Shown here piece by piece: positions 27,241 through 38,349 of a DNA stretch of 64,000 nucleotides. The stretch is taken from the NCBI GenBank assembly GCA_031180665.1, contig JAPSLP010000030.1:1-64000 (forward strand), read 5' to 3'. Under the pieces are notes generated by a model. The model made no database searches. It was not told the DNA's origin and was given only the letters and a program-made list of their open reading frames with translations. Both the position numbers and the translations under genes were made by a program. The number at the start of each line of letters is the position of its first letter. The stretch's first letter is position 1. The DNA is from Cupriavidus sp. Lineage in GTDB: Bacteria; Pseudomonadota; Gammaproteobacteria; Burkholderiales; Burkholderiaceae.

Positions 27241-27774
27241 TCAGCGCCGGCCCTTGGGCGCCAGCATGGTGCCGCGGCAGTTCGGGCTGCCGCAGCGGCA
27301 CTCGAACTCCTTCTTCAGCTTCTTCGTATAGCGGGCGTCGATCACCAGACCGTAGTCGTAGAACAGCTCCTCGCCCGGTTCGATATCGCGCAGCGCGTGG
27401 ATGAACACGCGGCCCTTCTTCTCGCGCGCCTCGCAGTTCGGTTCGCAGGCATGGTTGATCCAGCGCGAACGGTTGCCGCCGAACTTGGCATCGAGCACGT
27501 CGCCGCCCTCGAGGCTGAAATAGAAGGTGTGGTTGGGGTCGTTCGGATCGTGCGGGTGGCGCTCCAGCGCGGTCTCCCACGAGATCCGCTCGCCCTTGTA
27601 TTCGATGATCCGTTCCCCTGCCGCGATCGGCGCGATCGCATAGACGCCCTTGCCGTGCACGCCGGACTGGCGGACCTCGATGCGGTCCTTGGCGGTCTTG
27701 GGCTTCCTGTCTTTGCCCGCCTTGTCGCTCTTTTCCCCCTTGCTGTCCTGCTTGCGCTTCGACTGTTCGGCCAT
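27241..27774 (-). CDS. SET-domain protein lysine methyltransferase
   Basis: A 177-residue protein. The first 30 residues are Lys/Glu/Asp-rich and look disordered. A SET domain follows: HGKGVYAIAPIAAGERIIEYKG, the pseudoknot core RWINHACEPNCEA (105-117) and the catalytic ELFYDYG (136-142). A post-SET zinc-type motif CRCGSPNCRG (159-168) closes it. Such enzymes transfer a methyl group from S-adenosylmethionine to lysine. Bacterial copies are thought to act on DNA-binding or ribosomal proteins. Start 27774 has AGGA five bases upstream, better than the ATG at 27780. It is divergent from the HU gene across a 1.1-kb array of GTWWAC words, which suggests, but does not prove, that HU is a substrate. 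Confidence 0.92.
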   Translation of the reverse strand: MAEQSKRKQDSKGEKSDKAGKDRKPKTAKDRIEVRQSGVHGKGVYAIAPIAAGERIIEYKGERISWETALERHPHDPNDPNHTFYFSLEGGDVLDAKFGGNRSRWINHACEPNCEAREKKGRVFIHALRDIEPGEELFYDYGLVIDARYTKKLKKEFECRCGSPNCRGTMLAPKGRR

Positions 27775-27783
27775 ATCCATCCT

Positions 27784-28677
27784 GTTTACCGTCGTTCCGT
27801 CTGTCTGCTGGTCGTGTGCCCGATGTCGGCGCTTGCCGCCGGGCGATGCGGGATGATACCCGCGCCGCGTGACGGTGCGTGGCGAGACGTATACCTGCGC
27901 CGCGCCTGACGACCCCTGCCGAGTGAGGGCAATCGGTTAACGCAAGAACTTGCAAGAAGCGGTCCATCGGACGCACGCCGTGCGCCGACGTATACCGCAG
28001 GCCAGGGCAGCGTTGTGGAGCCGCGCTGTGGACAACCCCGCCTTCTTCTGTGGATAAGCAAGCGGGTTTGATGTGGGCTGCCTGGGGCCGGCATGGGGAT
28101 GCCTCAGGCATAAGTCCTAGTACTGTTGGTGGGTCCTCCACCGAACGGCTGAGTCATCCACCTGCCCCGGGATTTCGTCCCGATGGTTCTGCATTCGGTA
28201 AACCATTGATCCACCTGGCGTTTACCGACTTGTCCACAGAAAAGGGGCGGGTTTACCTACTACTACTATCCGTATACATCAAAAGAACTATCTAAACCAA
28301 AGGGACTACGACCCCCTGTCGGCTGCGAAGCGAAACCCGCACAGCGAGGTAAACGTCGCGGGCTGCGTTTACCGACATCGCGGCGTATACGCGTCGCCCA
28401 TGCCTGCAAAACGTCCTTTCCATCCGCTTCGCGTATACCGCCGGCGCGTATACCTCGGGGACGCCCATGGCCGCAGTCCGGTATACGGCCGAACCTTGGA
28501 AGTTGTCCGCGGACAAACCGGCGTATACGCGTGGAACGCCGCAGCGCGCACCAGAGCCCCTCAGAGCCGCGTTAACGCCCTGGACGGCACATGGGACGTG
28601 CTTGCCAGCCTGAGGCCGCCACGAGGCCATACGGCCGCGTATACCGGCCGTACGCCGTCCGCAGGCCGTCCGTAAAC
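27784..28677. repeat. Array of GTATAC/GTTTAC words in gene-free DNA
   Basis: No gene is supportable between 27775 and 28862. The interval instead holds nine GTATAC (27889, 27990, 28272, 28385, 28433, 28448, 28481, 28523, 28639), seven GTTTAC/GTAAAC (27785 within GTTTACC at 27784, 28198, 28220, 28251, 28349, 28367, 28672) and two GTTAAC (27936, 28571). Most carry CG before and C or CG after. GCGTATACGC occurs twice as a full palindrome. A 14-bp palindrome TTGTCCGCGGACAA lies at 28503-28516. A palindromic AT-containing hexamer at this density is highly unusual in GC-rich DNA. Confidence 0.85.
28027..28238. promoter_or_regulatory. Cluster of DnaA-box-like sequences (left of HU)
   Basis: Three nonamers match DnaA-box consensus forms: TGTGGACAA (28027-28035), TGTGGATAA (28049-28057, the reverse of TTATCCACA) and TTGTCCACA (28230-28238). 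They lie inside the GTWWAC array. No dnaA, rpmH or rep gene accompanies them, so they are noted as possible DnaA binding sites, not as an origin. Confidence 0.5.
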
Positions 28678-28862
28678 CGTCCCGGATCCCGCTCCAACCC
28701 CCGCAGGCCTTGTCCAGCCAAGGCTGGCTGTAACAATGTCGCGCGGGGACCGGCCGGCGCGACACGGTATGATGTGGCCCGCAGCGCCTTTTCCGGGGCC
28801 ACGTCCGGCACACCGGGTGGGCGGAAGGCAATGTGTTTTTTCAACTCGATACGGAGTGAAGC

Positions 28863-29141
28863 ATGACGAAAACCGAACTGATCGACGCGATCGCCGCGGG
28901 TGTGGATGGTCTGACCAAGGCCAAGGCTGAGCAGGCGCTGAACGTGACCCTGAACGCCATCATGGACGCCGTCGCCAAGGGCGATACCCTGAGCCTGATC
29001 GGCTTTGGCACGTTCAGCCAGGGCGAGCGTGGCGAGCGCATGGCCCGTAACCCGCGTACCGGCGAAGAAATCAAGGTCGAAGCCGCCAAGACGGTCAAGT
29101 TCAAGGCCGGCCAGAAGTTCAAGGACGCCGTCAATCAGTAA
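28863..29141 (+). CDS. hupB: HU-family nucleoid DNA-binding protein
   Basis: A 92-residue HU-beta-type protein that bends and wraps DNA as a homodimer or heterodimer. It has the N-terminal MTKTELIDAIA helix, the central TLSLIGFGTFSQGERGERMARNPRTGEEI arm with the conserved RNP that intercalates into the minor groove, and the C-terminal helix VKFKAGQKFKDAVN. GGAG lies seven bases before the ATG. A TATGAT at 28768 is a possible -10 element without a clear -35. DnaA-box-like sites lie on both sides, and a SET methyltransferase is divergent upstream. Confidence 0.96.
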   Translation: MTKTELIDAIAAGVDGLTKAKAEQALNVTLNAIMDAVAKGDTLSLIGFGTFSQGERGERMARNPRTGEEIKVEAAKTVKFKAGQKFKDAVNQ

Positions 29142-37224: not shown

Positions 37225-38349
37225 CTAGCCGAAGCGCACGCAATAGACCGGCGGCAGATGCGCCGACACGCAGGTCCACCGTTCGCCGCCGTTCTCCGAG
37301 ACCCACAGCCCGCCGGTGGTCGAGCCCATCGCCAGCCGTTCGCCGCTGTCGTCGACCGCCAGGCCGTGGCGATAGATCAGGTCGTAGGCCGGCGGCGCCG
37401 GCAGGCCTTCATCGAACACCTCGAAGCTGCGGCCGCCGTCGCGCGTGCGGGACACCACCAGCTTGCCGTCGACCGGCACGCGGCATTCGTCCTTGGTGGC
37501 CGGCGCGAACCACGCGGTCTCGGGATCGCGCGGATGCACCGCGACCGCGAAGCCGAACTTCGACGGCCGGCCTTCGACGCGCCGCCAGCTGGCACCGCCA
37601 TCCTCGGAACGGAAGACGCCGTCGTGATGCTGCACCCACAGCGCATCGGGCCGCGCCGGACATTGCACCATGTAGTGCGGGTCCTGGATGTTGGGATCCT
37701 CGCTGCGCTCGGGCGGCATATAGCCTGCCTTCATGCCGCGCGTGGTGGCCTCCCAGCTGTCACCGCCGTTGCGGGTCTGCCAGACGCCGCCGCAAGAGAT
37801 CGCAATCGACACATGGCGGCTGTCGCGCGGATCGACGCAGATCGAATGGATGCCGGGATAGTCGTAGCCGCCGCCGAACCACTCCGCGCGCTCGGGCCGG
37901 TCCCACAGCGGCCGGTTCAGCGCCCAGCTCGCGCCGCCATCGCCGGAACGGAACAAGCCACCGGGAATGGTGCCGGCCCACAGCACGCCTGGCTCGTCGG
38001 CGCCGCCGGCCTCGAGCACCCACAGTTGCTGCAGCGACCAGGGCGCAGGCTTGGGCGCGTCGGGGTTGTCAGGGGCGCTGGCGGCGGCGGCCTGCTCTGG
38101 CGGCTGCGGCGGATAGACCGGCACCGCACAGGCAGACCACTGGGCCTCGCCGCGCGCGCGGCGCCACAGCTTGACGCCGAAGTGGCCCAGATTCAATGCG
38201 GCATAGAGGGTGCCGTCGCGCGGGTCGGACAGCACCATGCTGACCGGCTCGCCGAGAAAATGCGCCTGGGTTTGCTGCCACTGTCCCTGGGGCTGGCGTT
38301 CGATCTCGAACAAGCCCTTGCGTGTTGCCACGAGAAGTCGGTCGTTCAT
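37225..38349 (-). CDS. BNR-repeat beta-propeller protein (sialidase-like fold)
   Basis: A 374-residue protein with repeated Asp-box/BNR units (RSGDGGASWALN, TRNGGDSWEATT, RSEDGGASWRRVEG, SRTRDGGRSFEV, SENGGERWTCV) forming a six- or seven-bladed propeller. There is no signal peptide, so it is cytoplasmic. None of the catalytic arginine-triad or nucleophile context of true sialidases is evident, so 'exo-alpha-sialidase' labels are probably misleading. It has GGAG before its ATG and is preceded, on the same strand, by a MoaD/ThiS-like gene ending in Gly-Gly. I recall this pairing in other bacteria, suggesting the propeller works with or is modified by the small protein. Confidence 0.85.
   Translation of the reverse strand: MNDRLLVATRKGLFEIERQPQGQWQQTQAHFLGEPVSMVLSDPRDGTLYAALNLGHFGVKLWRRARGEAQWSACAVPVYPPQPPEQAAAASAPDNPDAPKPAPWSLQQLWVLEAGGADEPGVLWAGTIPGGLFRSGDGGASWALNRPLWDRPERAEWFGGGYDYPGIHSICVDPRDSRHVSIAISCGGVWQTRNGGDSWEATTRGMKAGYMPPERSEDPNIQDPHYMVQCPARPDALWVQHHDGVFRSEDGGASWRRVEGRPSKFGFAVAVHPRDPETAWFAPATKDECRVPVDGKLVVSRTRDGGRSFEVFDEGLPAPPAYDLIYRHGLAVDDSGERLAMGSTTGGLWVSENGGERWTCVSAHLPPVYCVRFG

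Follow-up and report, generated by a model that had tools for sequence, protein, structure and literature searches.

The intergenic region between a SET-domain protein gene and an HU gene of Cupriavidus sp. (27781–28862 of the window, as we call the whole 64,000-nt stretch of DNA that was analysed) is very probably the replication origin (oriC) of chromosome 1, a prediction made from its DnaA boxes, DnaA-trio, AT-rich stretch and conserved geometry, and from the location of the homologous region at the GC-skew switch of a CH34-like genome. The dense array of GTWWAC words within it is best explained as a site cluster of an orphan methyltransferase, through which initiation would come under Dam-like methylation control without SeqA, and this reading as a whole was assigned a probability of about 0.68. 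The region is flanked by the SET gene (27241–27780, minus strand; Pfam PF00856, 82.2 bits), which falls outside the proposed mechanism, and by the HU gene (28863–29141, plus strand; Pfam PF00216, 101.7 bits).

Site array, origin anatomy and conservation

Exact counting over 27784–28677 gave 18 GTWWAC words, comprising nine GTATAC (27889, 27990, 28272, 28385, 28433, 28448, 28481, 28523 and 28639), seven GTTTAC/GTAAAC (GTTTAC at 27784, 28220, 28251 and 28367; GTAAAC at 28198, 28349 and 28672) and two GTTAAC (27936 and 28571), the same numbers as reported in the first-pass annotation. C directly preceded eight of the nine GTATAC. In 2000 dinucleotide-preserving shuffles of 27781–28862, GTWWAC occurred 1.02 times on average (maximum 5, observed 18) and GTATAC 0.24 times (maximum 4, observed 9), in agreement with the earlier estimate of far more GTATAC than base composition would give. 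The 62,918 bp of the window outside the intergenic region contained 16 GTWWAC, with two in the densest other 894 bp. Genome-wide word counts, covering GTATAC and GTTTAC/GTAAAC over 5,474,079 bp, gave 85 and 286 occurrences, respectively, and 9 of the 85 GTATAC fell inside the SET–HU intergenic region. A repeat search of the region returned short families built mostly around the GTWWAC motif, and the description of the array as something other than a simple tandem repeat was borne out; a replication factor, one of the binding proteins guessed at the time, fits the present reading. The proposed origin shares with Dam/SeqA-type sequestration an over-representation of methylation sites. As a separate observation, GTATAC was outnumbered roughly fourfold by its reversed word in the window's own genome (85 versus 349), and GTTTAC was less frequent than its own reversed word in all 20 genomes compared, as if selection acts against stray sites.

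The interval had been described as gene-free and occupied by the array; the array is real, and the interval is not featureless. Three DnaA boxes were located at positions common to most relatives: TGTGGACAA (28027–28035, minus strand, one mismatch to TTATCCACA), TGTGGATAA (28049–28057, minus strand, perfect) and TTGTCCACA (28230–28238, plus strand, one mismatch), the last adjoining the presumed DNA-unwinding element, an AT-rich stretch at 28260–28299 (68% AT, versus 69% GC for the window). A DnaA-trio-like run, CTACTACTACTAT, lies at 28257–28269 on the plus strand. The region therefore has the DnaA-box cluster of a bacterial DnaA-type oriC, with three boxes, not all of which are matched in every relative, and an AT-rich unwinding element with a DnaA-trio adjoining a DnaA box. 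The DnaA-trio motif takes the form of a repeat; the DnaA-trio concept is that of PMC5043019 (in part). Plasmid relatives of the region were searched for and none was found, a 40-nt core giving weak short matches (E 6).

For the conservation analysis, 28 relatives drawn from 80 fetched loci were aligned with the window and grouped by sequence into 19 Cupriavidus, two of which are named otherwise (L011, Burkholderiaceae bacterium 16; L020, Ralstonia sp.), and 9 Ralstonia, two of which are unclassified Burkholderiaceae (L027 and L030). C. pampae (L024), in which HU was not within 2.6 kb, was left out of the alignment. The origin geometry was common to the Cupriavidus and Ralstonia relatives. Among the 23 sequences in which the trio matched exactly, the position of the outer DnaA box relative to the trio was −234 in 19, −233 in the window, and −230, −231 and −231 in the three others, in which the trio match starts three bases earlier, L025 being off by one base more; the remaining six sequences had variant trio strings and DnaA box spacings of 22 and 203–204. 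All 28 aligned relatives carried the trio or a variant of it (CTATCACTACTAT, CTACTACCACTAT and CTATTACCACTAT among them), and in some of them one or two of the three DnaA boxes deviated from the consensus. The trio is bracketed by two conserved sites, a GTWWAC directly to its left (28251–28256; 16/19 Cupriavidus, 0/9 of the aligned Ralstonia group) and a GTATAC directly to its right, within the presumed unwinding element (28272–28277; 19/19 and 9/9), so that every one of the 28 relatives had a GTATAC adjacent to the trio.

Hexamer conservation, which the first-pass annotation had proposed to look for in related strains, held for part of the array. Six of the 18 positions were kept in 15–19 of the 19 Cupriavidus, namely the two bracketing sites, three further core sites (28198–28203 in 15, 28220–28225 in 17 and 28349–28354 in 16) and the first of three SET-side sites spanning 27889–27995 (27889 in 15); the other two SET-side sites were kept in 7 (27936) and 10 (27990). 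The remaining ten positions were kept in 0–6, comprising the outermost GTTTAC (27784–27789; 2/19) and the nine HU-side sites (28367–28677; starts at 28367, 28385, 28433, 28448, 28481, 28523, 28571, 28639 and 28672). The total per intergenic region stayed at 10–18 in the 19 Cupriavidus though HU-side positions shifted, and three control words (CAWWTG, GAWWTC and CTWWAG) occurred 0–2 times per intergenic region. At site 28220, GTTTAC, GTATAC and GTTAAC interchanged between species (9, 8 and 1 of 20, window included), as did GTATAC and GTAAAC at 28349 (10 and 7 of 20, window included). Conservation of the exact hexamer at the sites was modestly above that at random positions (permutation values of 0.019 in three gilardii relatives and 0.029 in the remainder). 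From these sequence comparisons, the core looks like it is under selection for position and the outer zone for density, and the cross-species conservation of core positions sits poorly with the idea of a decayed word-amplification. The Ralstonia group kept the origin geometry with only 2–3 GTWWAC sites, so the dense array is not required for it.

Methyltransferase and GTWWAC clusters at other loci

In relatives, orphan methyltransferases place m6A on both strands of GTWWAC: BCAM0992 does so in Burkholderia cenocepacia (PMC7364216, in part) and RS_RS09960 in R. solanacearum (PMC5390034, in part), and in C. necator H16, 95.3% of motifs were detected as methylated, the orphan methyltransferase of that strain being E6A55_RS13360 (PMC12645576). 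By analogy, the array sites are probably methylated in the present strain. A profile search of its genome identified one strong PF01555 gene (C84:26442–27581, L136; domain at C84:26592–27248), and such a gene was found in 14/14 genus genomes (own included), 13/13 Ralstonia-type genomes and 112/150 family genomes; from its single copy and family-wide conservation, the C84 gene is the apparent GTWWAC methyltransferase. Read by eye, it sits between apparent trpB and trpA genes, an odd place for a cell-cycle enzyme. In 20 Cupriavidus intergenic regions (window included, 22,469 bp), 301 of 332 GTNNAC words had a WW centre, and the next palindromic-outer WW family numbered 44. These centres (AT, TT, AA and TA), together with the interchange at conserved sites, indicate that the origin words follow the specificity of the methyltransferase. 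None of the 40 genus genomes searched, the window's own among them, had a SeqA homologue, and the search did recover the E. coli control.

The same words were also clustered at loci other than SET–HU. An oriC-like module beside tag (PF03352), consisting of a DnaA-box-like site (TTATCCAC), a trio and 5–9 GTWWAC, was present in 12 of 13 Cupriavidus-group genomes, own included (C31:90769–90945; L237, L276; others L233–L236 and L238–L244), and absent in G098. It lies 142 kb from SET–HU in G145 and 152 kb in G276, and on a separate contig in the window's own genome; it may be a second origin, a relict or a DnaA-titration site. Chromosome-2 origins were sought in 11 genomes, 8 from the window's genus and 3 of Ralstonia type, on the basis of iteron pattern and location; the gene next to the iterons and to ParA/ParB-like ORFs was taken to be repA. 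Four such repA origins could be placed, and all four had clusters (G276:C4:20–900; L280:804–1212; ends of L301 and L303), with 11 GTWWAC in 900 bp in G276, 9 in G291, 7 in G261 and 5 in G231, including a conserved quartet with 7/11/19 bp spacing upstream of the inferred repA. Three conserved GTWWAC sites have been described for the R. solanacearum megaplasmid repA (PMC5390034, in part). PF10134 was tried as a marker of chromosome-2 RepA and rejected, with matches in 3 of 16 genomes and none at a usable chromosome-2 origin; a candidate chromosome-2 origin at 2.36–2.48 Mb was likewise dropped, there being no iterons there.

The expectation that a comparable density would not be met elsewhere held for the rest of the window and failed for the genome, where a second cluster of seven GTATAC in 72 bp was found at C48:2291–2362 (L005), with strong hairpins (fold z −5.5). 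The surrounding 12 kb contained no DnaA box and no exact trio, so not every cluster marks an origin. By eye, this cluster is downstream of a gene resembling a DegP-type protease. Further observations were made in other genomes. Two matches to the trio + GTATAC core (at most one mismatch) were present in 14 of 16 Ralstonia-type genomes; where the two lie on a single contig (11 genomes), they are 18–34 kb apart. In G024, the matches lie at C1:3180162–3180430 and 3203484–3203750, with a third, degenerate copy near 3038720–3038945. Close to the beginning of a 2.46-Mb contig (L282:3058–3145, G255:C2), six GTWWAC fall within 88 bp, and five of these recur every 12 bp exactly.

These data bear on an unlikely alternative in which the region is oriC and the GTWWAC words are sites of a sequence-specific protein, a nucleoid or replication regulator, with methylation incidental. 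Such a protein would account for core sites at exact positions, and the C before eight of nine GTATAC hints at a longer site; there is also no known reader of the methylation, SeqA being absent. It is harder to reconcile with centres that match the methyltransferase specificity (AT, TT, AA and TA all being tolerated), with the recurrence of clusters both at DnaA origins and at origins whose inferred initiator is RepA, and with HU-side sites that move while the total per intergenic region stays at 10–18.

Position relative to SET, HU and dnaA

SET, HU and the array had been proposed as a single system combining a chromatin-type methyltransferase with a nucleoid protein. In C. pampae (L024), the DnaA boxes, the trio and 9 sites remain beside HU, and SET is ~4 kb away. 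HU was present near SET in 29 of the 80 SET loci, all named Cupriavidus, Ralstonia or unclassified Burkholderiaceae. For the 51 SET loci without HU in the stretch examined (some of which was ended by contig ends), 49 had at most two GTWWAC per any 1 kb. The exceptions, L082 (Paraburkholderia ribeironis) and L084 (Burkholderia sp.), had 4–5 GTWWAC 3–4 kb from SET, inside another DnaA-box/trio module whose trio is bracketed by GTTAAC and GTATACGTAAAC. Of the four Paraburkholderia/Burkholderia loci examined, two (L070 and L075, both Paraburkholderia) lacked an exact trio as well as a cluster. The array goes with the proposed origin rather than with SET, and neither the L024 arrangement nor the HU-less SET loci without an array lend support to a SET–HU chromatin-type system. 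GTWWAC sites on either side of the trio may predate Cupriavidus, which would then have elaborated them into the large array.

The same arrangement disfavours a reading in which GTWWAC methylation tunes divergent SET/HU transcription and not replication, as Erill et al. (2017) proposed for R. solanacearum, where three sites overlap predicted −35 elements of both genes (PMC5390034, in part). We consider this very unlikely for the Cupriavidus array, which stays at HU in L024 with SET 4 kb off, places a site directly beside the trio in every aligned relative, and has its counterparts at tag and repA, away from this gene pair; 18 sites over ~890 bp would also exceed what promoter overlap explains.

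The location of the chromosome-1 origin was assessed by GC skew. In the CH34-like genome G276 (chromosome 1 of 3,928,089 bp, dnaA at 104), SET–HU lies at 3,835,542–3,836,433, 92 kb from dnaA, and contains three perfect DnaA boxes spanning 213 nt from 3,835,710. Skew in 10-kb bins went from −233 to +17 in the bin next to SET–HU and remained positive past dnaA until one bin at ~60 kb; the cumulative skew minimum was at 3,849,995, and a two-line fit broke at 3,864,001. For C. metallidurans CH34, a skew switch has been reported near 3,837,500, beside 213 nt with three perfect DnaA boxes and ~90 kb from dnaA (coordinate 104), in passages of PMC2864759 that do not name the genes flanking the box region. 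Outside G276, GC skew by itself did not decide the matter: the window's own minimum was at 38,023, ~10 kb from SET–HU, the skew of G145 was flat over hundreds of kb and ambiguous, and the minimum in Ralstonia-type G024 was 95 kb from SET–HU. In G145, the point opposite the inferred terminus (~2.05 Mb, sampled every 180 kb) falls at ~0.24 Mb, nearer to SET–HU (0.30 Mb) than to dnaA (0). The distance from SET to dnaA was ~84–120 kb in five other genus genomes and ~298 kb in G145.

The remaining contender for the working origin is the dnaA-proximal region, with SET–HU as a DnaA-titration (datA-like) site or inactive copy, a reading that we regard as at least as improbable as transcriptional tuning. 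Three DnaA-box-like 9-mers upstream of dnaA, found likewise in G276, are compatible with it, as are the extra similar modules in Ralstonia-type and Cupriavidus genomes and a Ralstonia-type skew not centred on SET–HU; yet the 19,001 bp surrounding dnaA contained no GTWWAC and no exact CTACTACTA (exact trio only searched), the G276 skew runs positive through dnaA and switches at SET–HU, and the terminus-opposite point of G145 is closer to SET–HU. Site clustering at the dnaA promoter, a feature of Dam/SeqA-type sequestration, was accordingly absent. Neutral word amplification or slippage without function, with which the poor conservation of HU-side positions would agree, deserves almost no credence against 10–18 sites in 19 relatives, 0–2 occurrences of the control words and six sites kept in 15–19 of 19.

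Proposed mechanism and relation to known systems

In the preferred reading, Dam-like methylation control at oriC of chromosome 1, DnaA would bind the boxes at 28027, 28049 and 28230 and open the DNA through the trio at 28257–28269. After replication the 18 sites would be hemimethylated, and as the dense cluster would be remethylated slowly, the origin would stay marked as just fired. Since SeqA is absent, the delay of re-initiation until methylation is restored would have to come from some other reader, or from m6A acting directly on melting and DnaA filament growth at the two trio-bracketing sites. In B. cenocepacia, a mutant without this methyltransferase had larger nucleoids, linked by its authors to origin methylation, and methyltransferase mutants grew no differently during exponential phase (PMC7364216, in part), so any effect there is modest.

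One of the closest precedents is B. cenocepacia, whose origins are methylated at GTWWAC and CACAG near DnaA boxes on all replicons (PMC7364216, in part). The orphan-methyltransferase motif and its placement near DnaA boxes are the same, and the two differ in that the number stated for B. cenocepacia is two or more GTWWAC lying between methylated DnaA boxes, whereas Cupriavidus has 10–18 sites per intergenic region and a second module; our counts of CACAG cover four loci only. Because GTWWAC at B. cenocepacia origins was already reported, the Cupriavidus array is an amplified variant, and this amplified version is what is new; in the literature surveyed on GTWWAC, Cupriavidus/Ralstonia origins, the DnaA-trio and origin methylation, we found no report tying a GTWWAC array to a Cupriavidus origin. 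The R. solanacearum SET/HU upstream region has the same divergent gene pair and three methylated GTWWAC, was read as promoter control and, in the available sections of PMC5390034, was not called an origin; the Ralstonia-group relatives analysed here have 2–3 sites. E. coli oriC, with GATC, Dam and SeqA (PMC4285127, in part), also has over-represented adenine-methylation sites and a methyltransferase without a restriction partner, but Cupriavidus has another motif, a PF01555 enzyme, no SeqA and no cluster near dnaA, whereas in E. coli SeqA also controls the transcription of dnaA (same source, in part). In Vibrio cholerae, Dam sites occur at ori1 and ori2 (PMC6090056, in part), so that there, too, a single motif is found at one origin driven by DnaA and at another, of the iteron type, on a chromid; SeqA acts there, whereas Cupriavidus has GTWWAC and a different iteron set.

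A tentative extension, which we think rather doubtful, is SeqA-free origin licensing on a genome-wide scale, in which one orphan methyltransferase would mark the chromosome-1 origin, the oriC-like module ~140–150 kb away and the chromosome-2 RepA/iteron origin. The replicons would be kept in step by a reader, as yet undescribed, that recognises hemimethylated GTWWAC, or by m6A acting directly on the trio. If so, the tag-side module would be either another origin of chromosome 1 or a clock based on DnaA titration.

What began as an odd word cluster is recast as a replication-control element that can be put to the test, in a genus used as an industrial chassis (C. necator H16), with a likely location for oriC of chromosome 1 and a candidate methyltransferase. 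It provides a system for seeking the missing counterpart of SeqA outside Dam bacteria, suggests that a single mark may tie together two chromosomes that use different initiators, and offers a replication reading for the SET/HU promoter methylation of R. solanacearum. By analogy, the array suggests that DNA methylation helps time replication in these bacteria, as it does in E. coli with different parts.
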